Positions 585 to 28,912 of a stretch of 64,000 nucleotides of DNA are shown piece by piece. Under the pieces are notes generated by a model. The model worked only from the letters and a program-made list of their open reading frames with translations. It was not told the origin of the DNA and ran no database searches. The first letter of the stretch is position 1. Each line of letters begins with the position of its first letter. Origin of the DNA: Halarcobacter anaerophilus (GTDB lineage Bacteria; Campylobacterota; Campylobacteria; Campylobacterales; Arcobacteraceae); assembly GCF_006459125.1 (NCBI RefSeq), contig NZ_CP041070.1:248001-312000 (forward strand), written 5' to 3'. A program made the position numbers and the translations under genes.

Positions 585-1085
585 ATGACAAAAGAAAAAA
601 GCTTAAAAGAGAAAATTTTAGACTATATTTATATCTTATCAAAACAACCTTTACTTCTAAGAGATTTGTTAGAAGCAAACAGACAGTTTAATGAAGGAAT
701 GCATGCAGACCCTTCAAAATTGGGTTTTAGATTAAATCTTGCAAGAGCTTATTTAGTATATATTTTAATTGTATTGGCTATTTTAATTCCCCTTTCTGCA
801 ATCTTACACCAACCTTTGGCAAATATTGATCCTCATATCTCTATTTTAGGTGCAATGATTATAACAGCAGTTATTTTTATAGGTTTTAATTTTTTCCTTG
901 CAAAAATGAGAGATGAAATTACATATAAACAGATAAAAAGATCTTGGGCACTTAGATTCCCATATTTTCCTTATGATGAATATAATAAAAAAATAGAAGA
1001 GATATATTTAAAAGCTATCAAAGAAGAGATTTCAAAAAAAGATTTAGAAAAATATATTTTAGATAATCTTGTTGAAGAGGAGTAA
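585..1085 (+). CDS. Conserved hypothetical protein with two membrane segments
   Basis: 166 residues, not assigned to a family. The ATG follows a good ribosome-binding site (AAAAGGAATTAGCT). A basic cytoplasmic N-terminus of about 52 residues is followed by two hydrophobic segments (about 55-75 and 87-107) and a charged, Lys/Glu-rich C-terminal tail of about 55 residues, so both ends are probably cytoplasmic. It stands alone between a divergent YjdF-like gene and the rhuM-like gene. A function cannot be named from sequence. Confidence 0.7.
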   Translation: MTKEKSLKEKILDYIYILSKQPLLLRDLLEANRQFNEGMHADPSKLGFRLNLARAYLVYILIVLAILIPLSAILHQPLANIDPHISILGAMIITAVIFIGFNFFLAKMRDEITYKQIKRSWALRFPYFPYDEYNKKIEEIYLKAIKEEISKKDLEKYILDNLVEEE

Positions 1086-2639: not shown

Positions 2640-2715
2640 CTTTTGGGAACAAATTATATCTCTAAATAAAGGTTATAAAGCCAATAAGTTAGATTTTCTA
2701 ATTTTGTTCCAAAAG
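2640..2715. repeat. Long imperfect inverted repeat in the 2524-2730 gap
   Basis: CTTTTGGGAACAAATT (2640-2655) pairs with AATTTTGTTCCAAAAG (2700-2715) with one bulge on each side, and the inner arms continue to match loosely. No coding sequence is visible in 2524-2730. It could be a remnant of an empty or decayed cassette, but it lacks the terminal core boxes seen in the two attC-like sites. Confidence 0.4.
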
Positions 2716-2730
2716 TAAGAGATTTAGGAA

Positions 2731-2798
2731 ATTAACGTTTAAAATGAGCCAATGAATTGCCCGCAGGATAATTCATTGGCTCCTCTGATTTGTTAACT
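2731..2798 (-). repeat. attC-like recombination site, copy 1
   Basis: Read on the minus strand the site begins GTTAACAAATCAG right after the stop codon of the 2802-3230 gene and ends with AAACGTTAATT. Between them is a perfect 13-bp stem (GAGCCAATGAATT at 2746-2758, its inverse at 2770-2782) with an 11-base loop; both spacers between stem and end boxes are 9 bases. The layout R''-spacer-stem-loop-stem-spacer-R' and the TAAC...GTTA ends are those of integron attC sites. The R' core departs slightly from GTTRRRY, so I call it attC-like. Confidence 0.75.
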
Positions 2799-2801
2799 GT
2801 T

Positions 2802-3230
2802 TTAATATCCAATTATAAAGCAGCCTTTTACATTGATAAAGTTTTCTTCTCGAAAAAATGAATCAATTCTATTTACAACAGGATCAAAAGTTTTAGTGGT
2901 TCGTCCATTATTAGTTTGTCTGACTATTGGTACAATTAATAATAAATAATCTGCTTCTTTACAAATATGACATTTCCATATATCAAGTAAATCCATATTA
3001 TTTGTTATTGTTTTTCCTCTTTCAACTTCCATGATAATACCCGTTTCATTTATAGGCTTATAATAGTCTGGTCTTAATTGAGGTGTTTTGTAATCAGAAA
3101 ATAAACCTTTTTTCTCGCTTCTAAAACCTAAGTCTTTACATTTATCAATAAAAATATCTTGTATTTTATGACTTGTAGCATTAACTTGATGGGTTTCATT
3201 AATTTTATTTTTTATCTGTTCAATAGACAT
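2802..3230 (-). CDS. Cassette gene 1: hypothetical protein, possible PD-(D/E)XK nuclease fold
   Basis: 142 residues from the ATG at 3230. RPDYY (about 53-57) followed by GIIMEVERGKT (about 64-74) has the spacing of a PD...ExK nuclease core, which is suggestive only; a WKCHIC pair follows. The frame stays open and protein-like for 28 more codons upstream to 3314, where an ATA codon sits six bases after AAAGGA, whereas the ATG at 3230 has no good ribosome-binding site. The true start may therefore be 3314, or an original ATG was lost. The stop is three bases before an attC-like site and the 5' end abuts the previous one, the standard form of an integron cassette. No family recognised with certainty. 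Confidence 0.6.
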   Translation of the reverse strand: MSIEQIKNKINETHQVNATSHKIQDIFIDKCKDLGFRSEKKGLFSDYKTPQLRPDYYKPINETGIIMEVERGKTITNNMDLLDIWKCHICKEADYLLLIVPIVRQTNNGRTTKTFDPVVNRIDSFFREENFINVKGCFIIGY

Positions 3231-3330
3231 AAAATCATATATTTCTCGTACTGTAGATTGTGCAAGAATAAATTCTTGATTATTTTTGTCTTGTCCGTAT
3301 TCAAAATATTCTATGACGATTCCTTTTTCA

Positions 3331-3398
3331 GTTAACGTTTGAAGTGAGCTAATAAATTTCCCTTAGGGTAATTTATTAGCTCCCCTGATTTGTTATGT
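3331..3398 (-). repeat. attC-like recombination site, copy 2
   Basis: On the minus strand: CATAACAAATCAG, a perfect 13-bp stem (GAGCTAATAAATT at 3346-3358, inverse at 3370-3382) around an 11-base loop, then CTTCAAACGTTAACT. Both spacers are 9 bases, exactly as in copy 1. The two stem differences from copy 1 (C/G to T/A) are matched on the opposite arm, so structure rather than sequence is conserved. The R'' box contains the stop codon of the 3393-4124 gene. Confidence 0.77.
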
Positions 3399-4124
3399 AC
3401 CATTAATTAATTTCCAAATAAAACTTGATAATATATTTATAGATGTAGAAAATACAATAGTTATCAATATGGATAAAAGTGGATATTTTTTAATAAATAA
3501 CTCAACACTTTTCAACCAAGGTTTCTTTATATTATTAAGCTCTTTTGTGATAATTTTGATAAAATCATCAGGGATCGTTTTTTTGTTTATTCTTGATAAA
3601 CATTCATCACAAATAATTGGTTTTTCTGTATTGTAAATAATATCATTTTTGTCACCATTTAAATCAAATAAACAACCTCTAGTGTCTTCATGTGTAAACT
3701 CATTTACATTAGCACTAAAATCTGAGTTGAAAATTGTATATAAAGCAAATATTTCATAAATATTTTTTAAAATAAAATTTTCTAAAGATATATCTTTTTT
3801 AGCTAATACGTATTCTAAGTTTGAAACTGAAATACATATTTTATTTTCACTTATTCTATGCATATAAAAGTTATCTAAAAATTTATAATTCATTACAGCG
3901 ATGCAAATACCATCACAATTAACATCTGATAAAATACTTTTTACTTCATCAACAGAATAAACTACATCTAAGTAACCATCATTTTTTGATGGGGGTGGCA
4001 AGTCATTTTTTCTATCCAATCCCTCAATTGAAAACAGTTCAGATGTATGGTTTTTAATTAAATCAAAATTAACGATTCTATCAATATGTCCAATCATTAT
4101 AATTTTGATTTTTACTTTAGGCAT
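3393..4124 (-). CDS. Cassette gene 2: hypothetical protein with Cys motifs and C-terminal membrane anchor
   Basis: 243 residues, family not recognised. A central THEDTRGCLFDLNG segment (about residue 145) is followed some 25 residues later by ICDECLSRI, giving a His/Cys set that could bind a metal, possibly a degenerate zinc-protease or zinc-ribbon region (inference). One hydrophobic segment near the C-terminus (about 215-237, PLLSILITIVFSTSINILSS) probably anchors it to the membrane with the bulk in the cytoplasm. The ATG has AAGGA eight bases ahead. It ends inside attC-like copy 2 and is transcribed with cassette 1; a TATAAT box at 4163-4168 on the minus strand could serve as promoter. Confidence 0.65.
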   Translation of the reverse strand: MPKVKIKIIMIGHIDRIVNFDLIKNHTSELFSIEGLDRKNDLPPPSKNDGYLDVVYSVDEVKSILSDVNCDGICIAVMNYKFLDNFYMHRISENKICISVSNLEYVLAKKDISLENFILKNIYEIFALYTIFNSDFSANVNEFTHEDTRGCLFDLNGDKNDIIYNTEKPIICDECLSRINKKTIPDDFIKIITKELNNIKKPWLKSVELFIKKYPLLSILITIVFSTSINILSSFIWKLINGT

Positions 4125-4619
4125 TCAGTTCATCCTTGTACATAACTATTTATTAAATATACATTATATATAAAACACCCTAAAAATGAACAAATAACAT
4201 GCACAAAAAGTCTTCTATATCAAAATGCCTACAAAGACCGTAAATAAAGTATTTTTCTAAATATTACTATAAAAAACATTGGAAACTGAGATACTTCTTA
4301 AATAAATTTTAAGTTTATGATATGCTTTTTATGTATGTTTATTGTCGATATTTAGACGATAATAGTACATAATGTATGTATATTAAGGTGATATCGTAAT
4401 AAACCTGCAAAATGTTAAATATATTAAGAGGAGTAATGTGGACAGAAAATTGCTACAAAGATAAATTATAAAACAAGTTCAACAACCTGTACTTTTTGGC
4501 ACAAATTAGGCTAAGTAAGTTTAACTATGCTGAAATTCTAGGACTATCAAACTTTGACACAAAACTCTGAACAGTCTCAAATTTTTTTCATAAACTTAAA
4601 GACCTTTCAAAAATCTGGG
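4125..4619. other. 495-base gap without a supportable gene
   Basis: Very AT-rich. It carries a minus-strand TATAAT (4163-4168) that could drive the cassettes and an imperfect hairpin near 4344-4366 (ATTGTCG/CGATAAT). On the plus strand 4437-4619 reads as a protein-like frame broken by two in-frame stops, so it may be an eroded gene or transposase remnant; I cannot name it. This is where an attI site or integrase would be expected, and none is visible. Confidence 0.6.
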
Positions 4620-5357
4620 TCAATCCACTTTATCAAAAATAGCTTTTGCTTCTTTATTTCTCTGTTTCTTTAGTTCCATATCTATATATTTTGCTTCAAT
4701 TTCAACTTTTGATTTAAAAGCTATTGTCTGTTTTCTTTTTCCTGTCGGGTTTATTTCATAGATTTTAAAACCTGCTTCATATAAAGATAATCTTACATTT
4801 GTAGCAATTGAATAGGTGGTTACTATGCAATTATTGTTTGTGCAGTTAAAGATATCTTTAAAATATTCTACGCTCCAAAGTTCAGTGTTTACTTCACTTG
4901 AAAAAGCATCTTGATAAACAATATCTATATTGTGCAAGGATTTTATATACTCTCTTGCATCTCCAATAAAAAGTTCTATTTTTATATTTTCATCTTCATA
5001 TTTTTGTTTTGTTGAAAGTTGTTTTATTATATTTGACAATTCATCAAACTCTTTTGGGTATTTAAAATCTTTTAAAGAGGTTACAAGCTCTAAATCAAGC
5101 TCCGGGGAATATATTTCAAGTTTAATATCGGGAAAATATTTTTTTGCATAGTAAATCGTGCTTAATGTGTTATATCCCAAACCAAAACAGATATCAAGAA
5201 TTTTTAGACTTTTTCTGTTTTTTTTGTAGTTAAAAGCAGGAATAACGTGTTTTATCAAAGACTCTTTTATTGCCCCTGTTTTTACATCATGAAAGTGTTG
5301 CTTGTATTTTGTAGAAAAGAGTGTATTTGAGCCGTCGTTGGTTTTTATAAAATCTAT
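4620..5357 (-). CDS. mnmD: MnmD/MnmC-N-like tRNA wobble-uridine methyltransferase
   Basis: A SAM-dependent methyltransferase of the MnmC N-domain (DUF752) type, expected to convert nm5(s2)U34 to mnm5(s2)U34 in tRNA. LKILDICFGLGYNTLST is the SAM-binding loop, and DIVYQDAFSSEVNTELWS the family D-x-F...LW motif. The C-terminal oxidoreductase domain of MnmC is absent. The frame from TTG 5258 would omit the conserved N-terminus; upstream, in frame, it reads DFIKTNDGSNTLFSTKYKQH and so on, typical of the family, back to a TGA. The only well-placed start there is ATA at 5357, seven bases after AAAGG. I therefore extend the gene to 5357 (245 residues, normal for the family). It lies downstream of luxS. 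Confidence 0.8.
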   Translation of the reverse strand: MDFIKTNDGSNTLFSTKYKQHFHDVKTGAIKESLIKHVIPAFNYKKNRKSLKILDICFGLGYNTLSTIYYAKKYFPDIKLEIYSPELDLELVTSLKDFKYPKEFDELSNIIKQLSTKQKYEDENIKIELFIGDAREYIKSLHNIDIVYQDAFSSEVNTELWSVEYFKDIFNCTNNNCIVTTYSIATNVRLSLYEAGFKIYEINPTGKRKQTIAFKSKVEIEAKYIDMELKKQRNKEAKAIFDKVD

Positions 5358-5380
5358 ATTTTTGCCTTTAAAGAGGTTTC

Positions 5381-5398
5381 AAAGAGAATTTTCTCTTT
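5381..5398 (-). terminator. Short hairpin between luxS and mnmD
   Basis: AAAGAGA and TCTCTTT pair around a four-base loop just after the luxS stop. There is no U-tract on the minus strand, so termination is probably partial and mnmD may be read through. Confidence 0.35.
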
Positions 5399-5405
5399 AA
5401 AACTT

Positions 5406-5921
5406 TTATGAGTTTAAGCTCTCTAGTTTTTCTTCAGAGAGGTATAACTCTTTGTTTGACATAACACCTATTTTATGATTTAAAACCTCTTTTGCTATCT
5501 CTTTTGCCTCATCTAAAGAGTGCATTTTATATGAACCGCATTGATAAAGATTTAGTTCGGGAATATCTGCTTGTGATTTTACTTTTAATACATCTTCCAT
5601 AGATTTTTTCCAAGCATCCGCTACTTCTTGTTCACTTGGATTTCCAAGTAAACTCATATAAAATCCCGTTCTGCATCCCATAGGTGATACATCTATAACT
5701 TCTACTTTATCAGAGTTTAAATGTTCTCTTATAAATCCTGCAAACAAGTGTTCTAAAGTGTGTACACCTTTTTCACTCATTATTGCTTTATTCGGTACGC
5801 AAAATCTTAAATCAAATACAGTAATAACATCTCCTGAAGGTGATTTCATAGTTTTTGCAACTCTTACGGCAGGTGCCGGCATAATTGTATGATCTACTCT
5901 AAAGCTGTCTAATAATGGCAT
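5406..5921 (-). CDS. luxS: S-ribosylhomocysteine lyase LuxS
   Basis: 171 residues, standard LuxS length. It cleaves S-ribosylhomocysteine to homocysteine and the autoinducer-2 precursor DPD in the activated methyl cycle. The metal ligands H54 and H58 with E57 are in [10 protein letters not shown], the catalytic Cys is in [11 protein letters not shown], and the third metal ligand Cys is in [10 protein letters not shown]. The ATG has AAAAGGAAAACC ahead. A hairpin at about 5943-5960 in the upstream gap may end transcription from the 6017 gene, so luxS probably has its own promoter. Confidence 0.97.
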
Positions 5922-6016
5922 TTGGTTTTCCTTTTTACCGCTTTTAGTTAAGACTAAAAGGAGTCTGTTTTTGTGATTTTATCTAAATTCCTATTTTAAA
6001 GTCTTAAATTTTGTAT

Positions 6017-27865: not shown

Positions 27866-28912
27866 TTATTTTTTAGATAAATCATCTAATGTAAGTTTTT
27901 TACCTGCTAATACATCTTTTCTGATTGAAGTTCTAAAATCTTGCGGTAACGGGATTAATCCGATTTCACTTAAGATTCCGTCTTTTCCTATCATATTTTC
28001 AGACATAAACATCTCAATATATTTGTTCATTGCAGGAACATCTTTTTTATGAGAGTTTTTTGTATAGAAGAAAAGAGATCTTGATACAGGATATTTTGCA
28101 GATGAAATATTATCAGGAGTTGCAGCTATTCCATTGATTGTAGCACCAGATAATTTATCTTCGTTCTCTTCTAAAAATGAGAATCCGAAAATACCGAATG
28201 CATTTTTGTTTTTAGTTAGTTTTTGAACAATAATATTATCATTTTCACCAGATGGTACATATACACCGTCTTGTCTTATTACAGAGTATTTTTTATATTT
28301 TTTATCAGCTTTTGCTTTATCTGTATAAACTGCCATTTTTTTGAAAATGTGTTGCATTACTAGCTCTTCAAAAGCATCTCTTGTTCCTGAAGATTTTGGC
28401 GGTCCGTAAACGATGATTTCTCTGTTTGGTAAAGAAGAATCAATATCAGACCAATTTTTATATGGGTTTTTAATTAAAGATTTTCCGTCTTTTGAAGGTA
28501 CTTCTTCAGCAACAGCTAATGCTAATTGCTCTCTTGTAACATTAAAAGCATTATTTGATTTATCTTGTGCAAATGCGATACCGTCATATCCGATTACCGA
28601 TTCAGTAATATCAGTTACTCCGTTTTCTTCACAAAGTTTGAACTCTTTTGTTTTCATTCTTCTTGAAGCATTTGTAATATCAGGAGTGTTTAAACCGTTT
28701 CCTGCACAGAAAAGTTTCATACCTCCACCTGAACCTGTTGATTCAACTACTGGAGTTGGATATTTTGTTGTTGCACCTAATTCTTCAGCTACAGCAGAAG
28801 AGAAAGGGTATACTGTAGAAGAACCTACAATTTTAATTTGATCTCTAGCACTTAAAGATACAGTAAGTGCAGCAGATGCAAATAAAGCAAGTGTTGTTTT
28901 TTTGATTGTCAT
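27866..28912 (-). CDS. pstS: Periplasmic phosphate-binding protein PstS
   Basis: 348 residues with a signal peptide (TTLALFASAALTVSLSA). Phosphate-binding loops are visible: VGSSTVYPFSSAVAEELG near the N-terminus, ESTGSGGGMKLFC, and SSGTRDAFEELV. It delivers phosphate to PstCAB. It is preceded by a Pho-box promoter and followed by a hairpin, separating it from the rest of the locus. Confidence 0.95.
   Translation of the reverse strand: MTIKKTTLALFASAALTVSLSARDQIKIVGSSTVYPFSSAVAEELGATTKYPTPVVESTGSGGGMKLFCAGNGLNTPDITNASRRMKTKEFKLCEENGVTDITESVIGYDGIAFAQDKSNNAFNVTREQLALAVAEEVPSKDGKSLIKNPYKNWSDIDSSLPNREIIVYGPPKSSGTRDAFEELVMQHIFKKMAVYTDKAKADKKYKKYSVIRQDGVYVPSGENDNIIVQKLTKNKNAFGIFGFSFLEENEDKLSGATINGIAATPDNISSAKYPVSRSLFFYTKNSHKKDVPAMNKYIEMFMSENMIGKDGILSEIGLIPLPQDFRTSIRKDVLAGKKLTLDDLSKK

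Follow-up and report, generated by a model that had tools for sequence, protein, structure and literature searches.

Integrons are defined by an integrase gene, intI, lying beside the recombination site attI. Integrase-less clusters of cassettes are already known, also in Campylobacterota. The available excerpts of earlier reports list integrons in this phylum and give intI loss as one proposed origin of CALINs (PMC8618304), tabulate CALINs and In0 for Campylobacterota such as Sulfurovum and Sulfurimonas (PMC10295459), and describe CALIN cassettes as usable by exogenous IntI (PMC9668308). In Xanthomonas, again from an excerpt, intI has been lost progressively and CALINs occur at several other loci, one of them on a conjugative plasmid (PMC12444791). 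A paper on Aliarcobacter plasmids, in the part available, mentions integrons once, in its introduction (PMC9535334). Titles and abstract openings, a scope that leaves most subscription journals outside, hold no report of integrase-less attI platforms in Arcobacteraceae.

The locus described here belongs to Halarcobacter anaerophilus and lies in a window (the whole stretch of DNA analysed, 64,000 bases; G000:C1:248001-312000) of a one-contig genome of 3,016,922 bases. Its segment 2554-4578 is very probably an integron that has lost its integrase gene through an internal deletion. This reading draws on the anatomy of the locus, its homology to intI-bearing integrons, a junction that it shares with other loci, and similarity that stops at the end of attI. 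From the same sequences we infer what the activity of the sites, their expression and the route of spread may be.

Like a CALIN, the locus is an attC array without intI; unlike one, it keeps attI, a leader and a stub of intI, and the deleted platform is itself present in multiple copies across genera and plasmids. With the chromosomal integrons of Campylobacterota (those of G391, G396 and G292) it shares attI, leader, attC type and outer flanks, but not intI, which is missing in the window. The Xanthomonas integrons resemble it in the decay of intI and the dispersal of CALINs; there, as far as the excerpted report goes, intI is, but for two exceptions, confined to a single locus, ilvD, whereas here one deleted attI platform is dispersed (PMC12444791). 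A right terminal repeat, and an 8-bp duplication at another locus of the same genome (L110), recall the ends of IS256-family transposons, although the window locus has no transposase gene. What is new is that attI is retained where intI has been deleted and, chiefly, that a single deleted platform has spread.

The attC sites

Two hairpins define the cassette ends, both assigned from structure, folding and a covariance model:

2733-2795, minus strand: attC site 1, at the end of cassette B
3333-3395, minus strand: attC site 2, at the end of cassette A

Read on the minus strand, each is 63 nt long and follows one plan: TAAC, 9 bases, one arm of a 13-bp stem, an 11-base loop, the other arm, 9 bases and GTTA. 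The two are 83% identical across 64 bases, and the 2 of 13 stem pairs that differ between them are both compensated. The original prediction, made from the sequence alone, had described this layout, its place and the compensation in the stems as we find them; the length of 68 bases that it gave includes flanks. It had also placed each site after a minus-strand gene at or near the stop codon, and indeed the stop of the cassette A reading frame (243 codons) overlaps the outer TAAC of site 2, and that of the cassette B frame (142 codons) lies 6 bases before site 1. The sites thus sit at the 3' ends of cassette genes in a single orientation.

When the 64-kb window is scanned for TAAC...GTTA at 55-74 nt and with a stem of 10 bp or more, 2 sites appear; each of 40 dinucleotide shuffles gives 0. 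As single-stranded DNA, sites 1 and 2 fold with z = -4.4 to -7.3, and 0 of 200 shuffles fold as well on either strand. Among 15 related 63-nt sites (alignment A4: 14 of 35 sites picked by script for fixed ends and a minimum stem of 8 bp, plus 1 other), 98.0% of cells pair and 3 pairs show two-sided change, against at most 42.1% pairing in slid controls; the preselection for stems and ends inflates the pairing, and the outer helix was unable to vary because the sites had been picked in this way.

A structured covariance model that we built from 15 sites (R2), including sites 1 and 2 and one further site of the same genome, has matches at E<=0.1 in 13 of the 16 genomes of the genus, this one included. 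Both window sites, which are in its training set, score in it rather than falling to background. At the same threshold the model gives 9 matches in the genome, which reduce to 5 distinct attC sites because 4 are reverse-strand readings of these; 3 of the 5 are training sites. They are the window pair and the following three, in genome coordinates, all five scoring best on the minus strand:

1427564-1427625, minus strand: attC site
1868303-1868365, minus strand: attC site
1869007-1869069, minus strand: attC site

The four that are of the site 1 type score 87-96 bits on the minus strand and 35-45 bits on the plus strand. A sixth, attC-like site of 124 nt was found by script (L111:238-361). The search for further copies in the genome, which the original prediction had named as a check, has thus returned additional sites and no intI. 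BLAST with site 1 matches 22 of 60 genomes, this one counted and one (G008) by 23 bases only. Sites of this type share a contig stretch with intI in the family member G203; in the congener G391, whose intI occupies 1195429-1196373, they are found between 1191315 and 1194636, to the attI side of that gene. The same type of site beside intact intI in these two genomes bears out the attC-like identity proposed originally.

An Rfam search gave chance matches only. A mixed alignment of 35 attC sites (A3) was discarded, since RNAalifold gave a consensus without any pair because MAFFT had misaligned the attC subtypes; the structureless model derived from it (R1) was not used.

Canonical attC sites end in R boxes of consensus RYYYAAC and GTTRRRY at the two ends of an imperfect palindrome. 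In the window sites the TAAC/GTTA ends and the 13-bp stem are present and the full R boxes fit loosely; the spacers are 9/9 with an extrahelical base that is not clear, the asymmetric arms being clearer in other sites of the genus. We conclude that the hairpins are confirmed as attC sites by their structure, orientation and company, and that they are predicted substrates for recombination by IntI. The locus also has what defines a CALIN, at least two attC sites with intI not nearby. As stem-loops that are intergenic and multi-copy, the hairpins might be taken for another repeat family, such as terminators or palindromes of the REP or MITE kind, located after genes by coincidence. We give this reading almost no credence: their orientation to genes is fixed, the sites cluster beside intI, window 2700-3430 has no terminator-like match, and such a hairpin is absent at the 5 other places examined (of 6) of an 11-base motif.

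attI, leader, integrase stub and flanks

The remaining parts of the platform are as follows:

2554-2731, no strand assigned: LE, the flank after the last attC, conserved beside true integrons of congeners
about 4144-4170 (~27 bases), no strand assigned: attI, from comparison with intI loci and boundary mapping
4171-4436, no strand assigned: leader, the expected holder of the cassette and intI promoters
about 4437-4472 (~36 bases), plus strand: decayed stub of the intI 5' end, from alignment with intact intI starts, with small deletions
4470-4578, no strand assigned: RE, the flank found just past the intact intI 3' end in G396 and, by eye, partly in G391
4556-4578, minus strand: IS256-like terminal repeat that ends RE

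All 8 intI loci mapped in the genus, intact or broken, have attI, and the window has it in the corresponding position; here 4143-4451 is 79% identical to the 309 bases reaching the intI start in the congener G292. The stub is short and degenerate, so its assignment is by alignment; its similarity to intI starts, and its position between the leader and RE, argue that intI was deleted from inside the integron. Beyond it, a relative of window 4478-4579 lies ~40 bases past the 3' end of intI in G396. On the opposite side, LE is 91% identical in G391 (L116), 93% in G396 (L124), 84% in L128 and 87% over part of L110; it follows the last attC in the window and in G391, and in G396 it is next to a weak site (24 bits). 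A scan of the leader gives promoter-like matches no more often than shuffles do. By eye, RE of G391 is without a stretch of ~57 bp that is present in G396 and the window, and a short direct repeat bounds it.

Comparison of window 4130-5930 with 15 congeners gives mnmC/luxS and many short matches of 4138-4580, several of them beside intI. The query used to map the attI boundary took in 13 bases outside attI. Of 13 attI-bearing matches in congeners, 12 have their first base at query 9-15 (window 4138-4144) and one at query 3; the 7 best matches on plasmids all start at query 10-14 (window 4139-4143). These starts indicate that similarity between attI loci ends within a few bases of G^TT. In 28 attI rows, three likely chance matches being kept among them, the second T of GTT is conserved at 0.96, the next base at 0.79 and those that follow at 0.32-0.54; only conservation beyond the first T is informative, since the search pattern covered attI up to that T. 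An attI with a predicted G^TT insertion point is thus present.

The locus forms part of an insertion. In 4 of 8 congener stretches compared (G391, G400, G406 and G377) the gene at window 585-1085 adjoins mnmC, where the window has ~3.5 kb; G396 has other DNA between the two, and the stretches of G402, G398 and G397 did not reach the left gene. The ~3.5-kb insert also carries a RhuM-like gene (1211-2059) and a small helix-turn-helix gene (2329-2523), both outside LE.

An ordinary CALIN, with its cassettes put off target at a secondary site by an IntI encoded elsewhere, would be in keeping with a genome without intI, and CALINs are said, in the excerpt available, to be commoner than intI-bearing integrons (PMC9668308). 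This origin is nevertheless very improbable for a locus that has attI, leader, intI stub and both outer flanks. The stranded CALIN of the original prediction therefore stands as regards integrase-less cassettes in a Campylobacterota genome, but this is not a cluster stranded at a random site, because attI, leader and intI stub occupy 4144-4578. Under the preferred reading, an integron with its intI deleted, IntI would earlier have inserted two cassettes at attI (4144-4170) through the folded bottom strand of the attC sites; a later deletion, from the end of the stub (near 4472) to the downstream flank, would have taken out most of intI and spared attI, the leader, the cassettes and the outer flanks on both sides.

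Absence of the integrase

Of the intI gene that a complete integron carries, the window locus has the stub only. The best match to the integrase model TIGR02249 in the genome scores 51 bits, against a curated cut-off of 265; we take it for another tyrosine recombinase, because at E<=0.001 all 14 of 14 control genomes match as well. At E<=1e-20 there is no intI in the 3.02-Mb genome, so that the lack of an integrase noted originally for the window extends to the whole contig. At E<=1e-60 IntI is found in 39 of 397 genomes of the class, 34 of them above the curated cut-off, and in 0 of the 14 controls. Within the genus, this genome counted among 16, intI is intact in 4 (G292, G391, G396 and G406) and broken in 4 more (G397, G403, G404 and G405). 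Weaker intI-like matches, found in G399, G377 and G304 and once in G404, share ~30% identity and resemble other recombinases. Unless IntI were supplied in trans, the cassettes of this genome, which lacks the integrase, would be frozen.

The cassettes and their proteins

Cleavage points at G^TT, as integron chemistry would place them, delimit two cassettes:

3336-4145 (810 bp), minus strand: cassette A, from the G^TT of attI to that of site 2; similarity between attI loci stops at the attI end
3393-4124, minus strand: reading frame of cassette A, 243 aa, with a C-terminal membrane helix
2736-3335 (600 bp), minus strand: cassette B, from the G^TT of site 2 to that of site 1, from sequence
2802-3230, minus strand: reading frame of cassette B, 142 aa, an orphan

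Transcription of both probably starts in the leader or at the cassettes' own promoters. The start of the cassette B frame is uncertain, because the frame stays open upstream (3230-3359) into attC site 2 with no ATG, GTG or TTG; the gene either has an unusual start or is truncated at its 5' end. AAGGA precedes an ATA codon in this upstream frame.

The cassette proteins were expected to be unfamiliar, and nothing significant is found for either in Pfam, NCBIfam or PHROGs; PADLOC gives a weak 'E1-E2' match to the cassette A protein (E 2.9e-5). Both are also rare among relatives, the 243-aa protein having homologues in 4 of 397 class genomes and the 142-aa protein in 1 of 397, this genome being counted in each case. 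The three other class genomes have the cassette A protein at 55-58% identity, at loci where the script found no attC-like site. More distant relatives occur at 40% identity in two MAGs of other phyla and at 30-31% on plasmids of Vibrio campbellii and Candidatus Tenderia. The cassette B protein is thus confined to this genome among the 397 of the class, and no relatives occur on the viral contigs, phage records or plasmids searched; attI and site 1 likewise have none on viral contigs or phage records. By eye, a RhuM-like gene is also present beside a cassette A relative in L158 (2462-3517).

The cassette A protein had been described as membrane-anchored with His/Cys motifs. Its C-terminal helix agrees with this, as do H145, C151, C172 and C175, invariant across the protein and four relatives. 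An AlphaFold2 model calculated on three sequences has a pLDDT of 71.8, falling below 50 over most of residues 134-170, so that the His/Cys part is poorly modelled. Its best PDB matches are archaemetzincins and other metzincins, a weak resemblance with nothing at E<=0.001 (Foldseek top match 2x7m: E 9.4e-3, prob 0.98, TM 0.39/0.50). The catalytic motif of archaemetzincins is HExxHxxGxxH, and HExxH is absent from the protein and its four relatives. It may be a membrane-anchored, non-proteolytic metzincin relative, a guess from the model that we hold at rather less than even chances. For the cassette B protein, in which a PD-(D/E)XK core had been thought possible, the model, at a pLDDT of 37.7, is too poor to be of use, and there is no match to any family searched.

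Other remnants in the genome

Outside the window, attI-like stretches occur at 1871254, 1428284, 1194027 and 1174409. The first two each head an array with attC; after the third come a small membrane protein gene and what reads by eye as a toxin-antitoxin pair, and nothing was recognised around the fourth. None of these loci has the stub-RE junction described below, so the loss of intI there was either separate or traceless.

The second intI-less array with attI spans 1868303-1871284 (L013:1501-2763 and L111), and among its cassette products are a BrnA antitoxin, with its likely partner toxin (by eye), and a protein whose SH3-like match is weak. A third (L014:1687-2199, at ~1.43 Mb) lies beside a gene that reads as dihydrolipoamide dehydrogenase; its cassette protein has a SLATT match below cut-off, SLATT being a family linked to defence. 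A further small element, L110:351-1614 (G000 about 2473937-2475200), has IS256-like ends, an 8-bp duplication, a transposase fragment (by eye), LE and RE, and a passenger membrane protein gene; attC and attI matches are absent from it.

The deleted platform at other loci

Among 35 attI loci examined (5 in this genome, 16 in congeners and 14 on plasmids), the stub-RE junction is present at 17 when up to 10 mismatches in 32 are allowed, and at 12 with up to 9, the script's own cut; the minimum in 400 random window stretches is 11. The 17 are the window locus, three in congeners (two in G405, one in G399) and 13 of the 14 on plasmids, and so include all seven Arcobacteraceae plasmids found, with up to four copies on one plasmid. 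They are not independent, p133_LEO and p133_DSM being near copies and pACRY 2, pM830 5 and p83 sharing a region. Five loci have exactly 10 mismatches: G399, pACRY 2, pM830 5 and p83 carry a one-base insertion, and pACRY 1 is simply more diverged. The junction of pM830 2 (8 mismatches) matches mainly within its RE part. Most plasmid copies retain only the first 22-34 bases of RE. Within the stretches covering the 35 loci, 4 have an intact intI and 5 a broken or fragmentary one, and at 26 none is found; other tyrosine recombinase genes occur elsewhere on the platform-bearing plasmids.

The one shared junction is best explained by a single ancestral event, a deletion that would now be carried by numerous loci on chromosomes and plasmids across several Arcobacteraceae genera. 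A DNA search finds the leader in 44 of 104 genomes of the family, in 11 of its 20 genera. Matches that run from attI past the junction (query 1-2 to at least 349) number at least 15 among the matches listed, in 14 genomes of four genera, this one counted. Seven of 72,556 plasmid records carry the platform, in 18 places, and all are from Aliarcobacter or Arcobacter. Contig G276:C2 has its matches at the same coordinates as pACRY43158, which makes Aliarcobacter the probable identity of its genus, g2.

Genes beside the plasmid attI sites, in cassette orientation, are annotated as Shedu, DUF262 (a pair), DUF4917 and TIR. On three Aliarcobacter plasmids (L167, L169 and L170) one and the same Shedu-family nuclease gene and a small partner gene adjoin attI and are followed by an attC-like site. 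A. butzleri p83_DSM_105473 (L170) has predicted chloramphenicol and macrolide resistance genes within 6 kb of the integrase-less platform, as neighbours that may or may not be cassettes.

Route of spread

Three routes are considered. The platform may have spread through homologous recombination and plasmid transfer only, with no dedicated mechanism, and we put this at somewhat under an even chance. Platform copies on seven plasmids are consistent with it, as is a region with the platform and the Shedu gene that is common to pACRY43158, pM830MA and p83, but the copies within the single genome of G405 lie in different flanks.

An IS256-like element, with terminal repeats bracketing the platform, is a rather doubtful vehicle. 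The repeats, which we assign presumptively to the IS256 family, are represented in the window by the right one, at 4556-4578; elsewhere in the genome L110 has both (left repeat 31/33) with an exact 8-bp duplication, TCTTGATT, and the G396 integron has a 7/8 duplication. The left repeat, however, is not found in the window, L125 or L131, which have the right end only, and the window shows no convincing duplication, so that paired repeats with an 8-bp target duplication are missing there. The left repeat of G396 matches at 20/33 ungapped against a background of 19, the only improvement coming from a one-base gap placed by eye; the ends in G391 are weak, and in most plasmid copies no more of RE is left than its first 22-34 bases.

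The third possibility, which we consider unlikely, is that the LE-RE-leader-attI piece travels as a cassette with attI, rather than attC, at its end, moved by IntI acting in trans. Left over from one ancestral deletion of intI, the piece of flank, leader and attI would then be a non-autonomous platform, a cassette-sized promoter cassette with integrase cleavage points at both ends and attI as its recombination site, moved into arrays by IntI in trans. In two copies on pAFAEC (L171:6001 and L171:612, the leader of the latter being shortened) the sequence leads from attI, by way of stub and RE, to an LE end at an attC found by R2 (30.5 and 47.4 bits). LE ends also abut attC sites of differing types. 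R2 supports those in the window, in L116 and at L171:12050 (43.9 bits); the one in L124 is weak (24.0 bits), and the LE end of L064 adjoins a 138-nt palindrome, with a 15-bp stem, to which R2 gives no score. On the other side, the sequence after the LE end of pM830MA at L169:27623 is background to R2 (4.3 bits), with a stem of at most 5 bp; attC is absent at the LE ends of L171:8688 and of the L169 copies at 28862 / 29277; L167:41622 and L169:25331 abut other sequence, and L067 has ~36 extra bases. A search for a pair of arrays with and without the attI module found none. A third attI-ending module copy on pM830MA was rejected, its resemblance to attC being by eye and not supported by R2. Where both ends are attested, the sequences fit a module between two integrase cleavage points, whose movement by IntI is hypothetical. 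If this route were true, it would assemble tandem integrons in which several attI sites occur, plasmids being the notable case and some of these carrying predicted defence genes alongside.

Implications

An integron with its intI deleted from within explains one class of 'stranded' cassette clusters. In Arcobacteraceae, attI, leader and cassettes have been separated from their integrase, apparently once, and the same junction is now found in at least four genera of this one family and on seven plasmids. It points to predicted defence genes (Shedu, paired DUF262 proteins and TIR) beside attI in Aliarcobacter. Two ideas become directly testable: that attI may travel like a cassette, and that one integrase may serve many attI sites in a cell.
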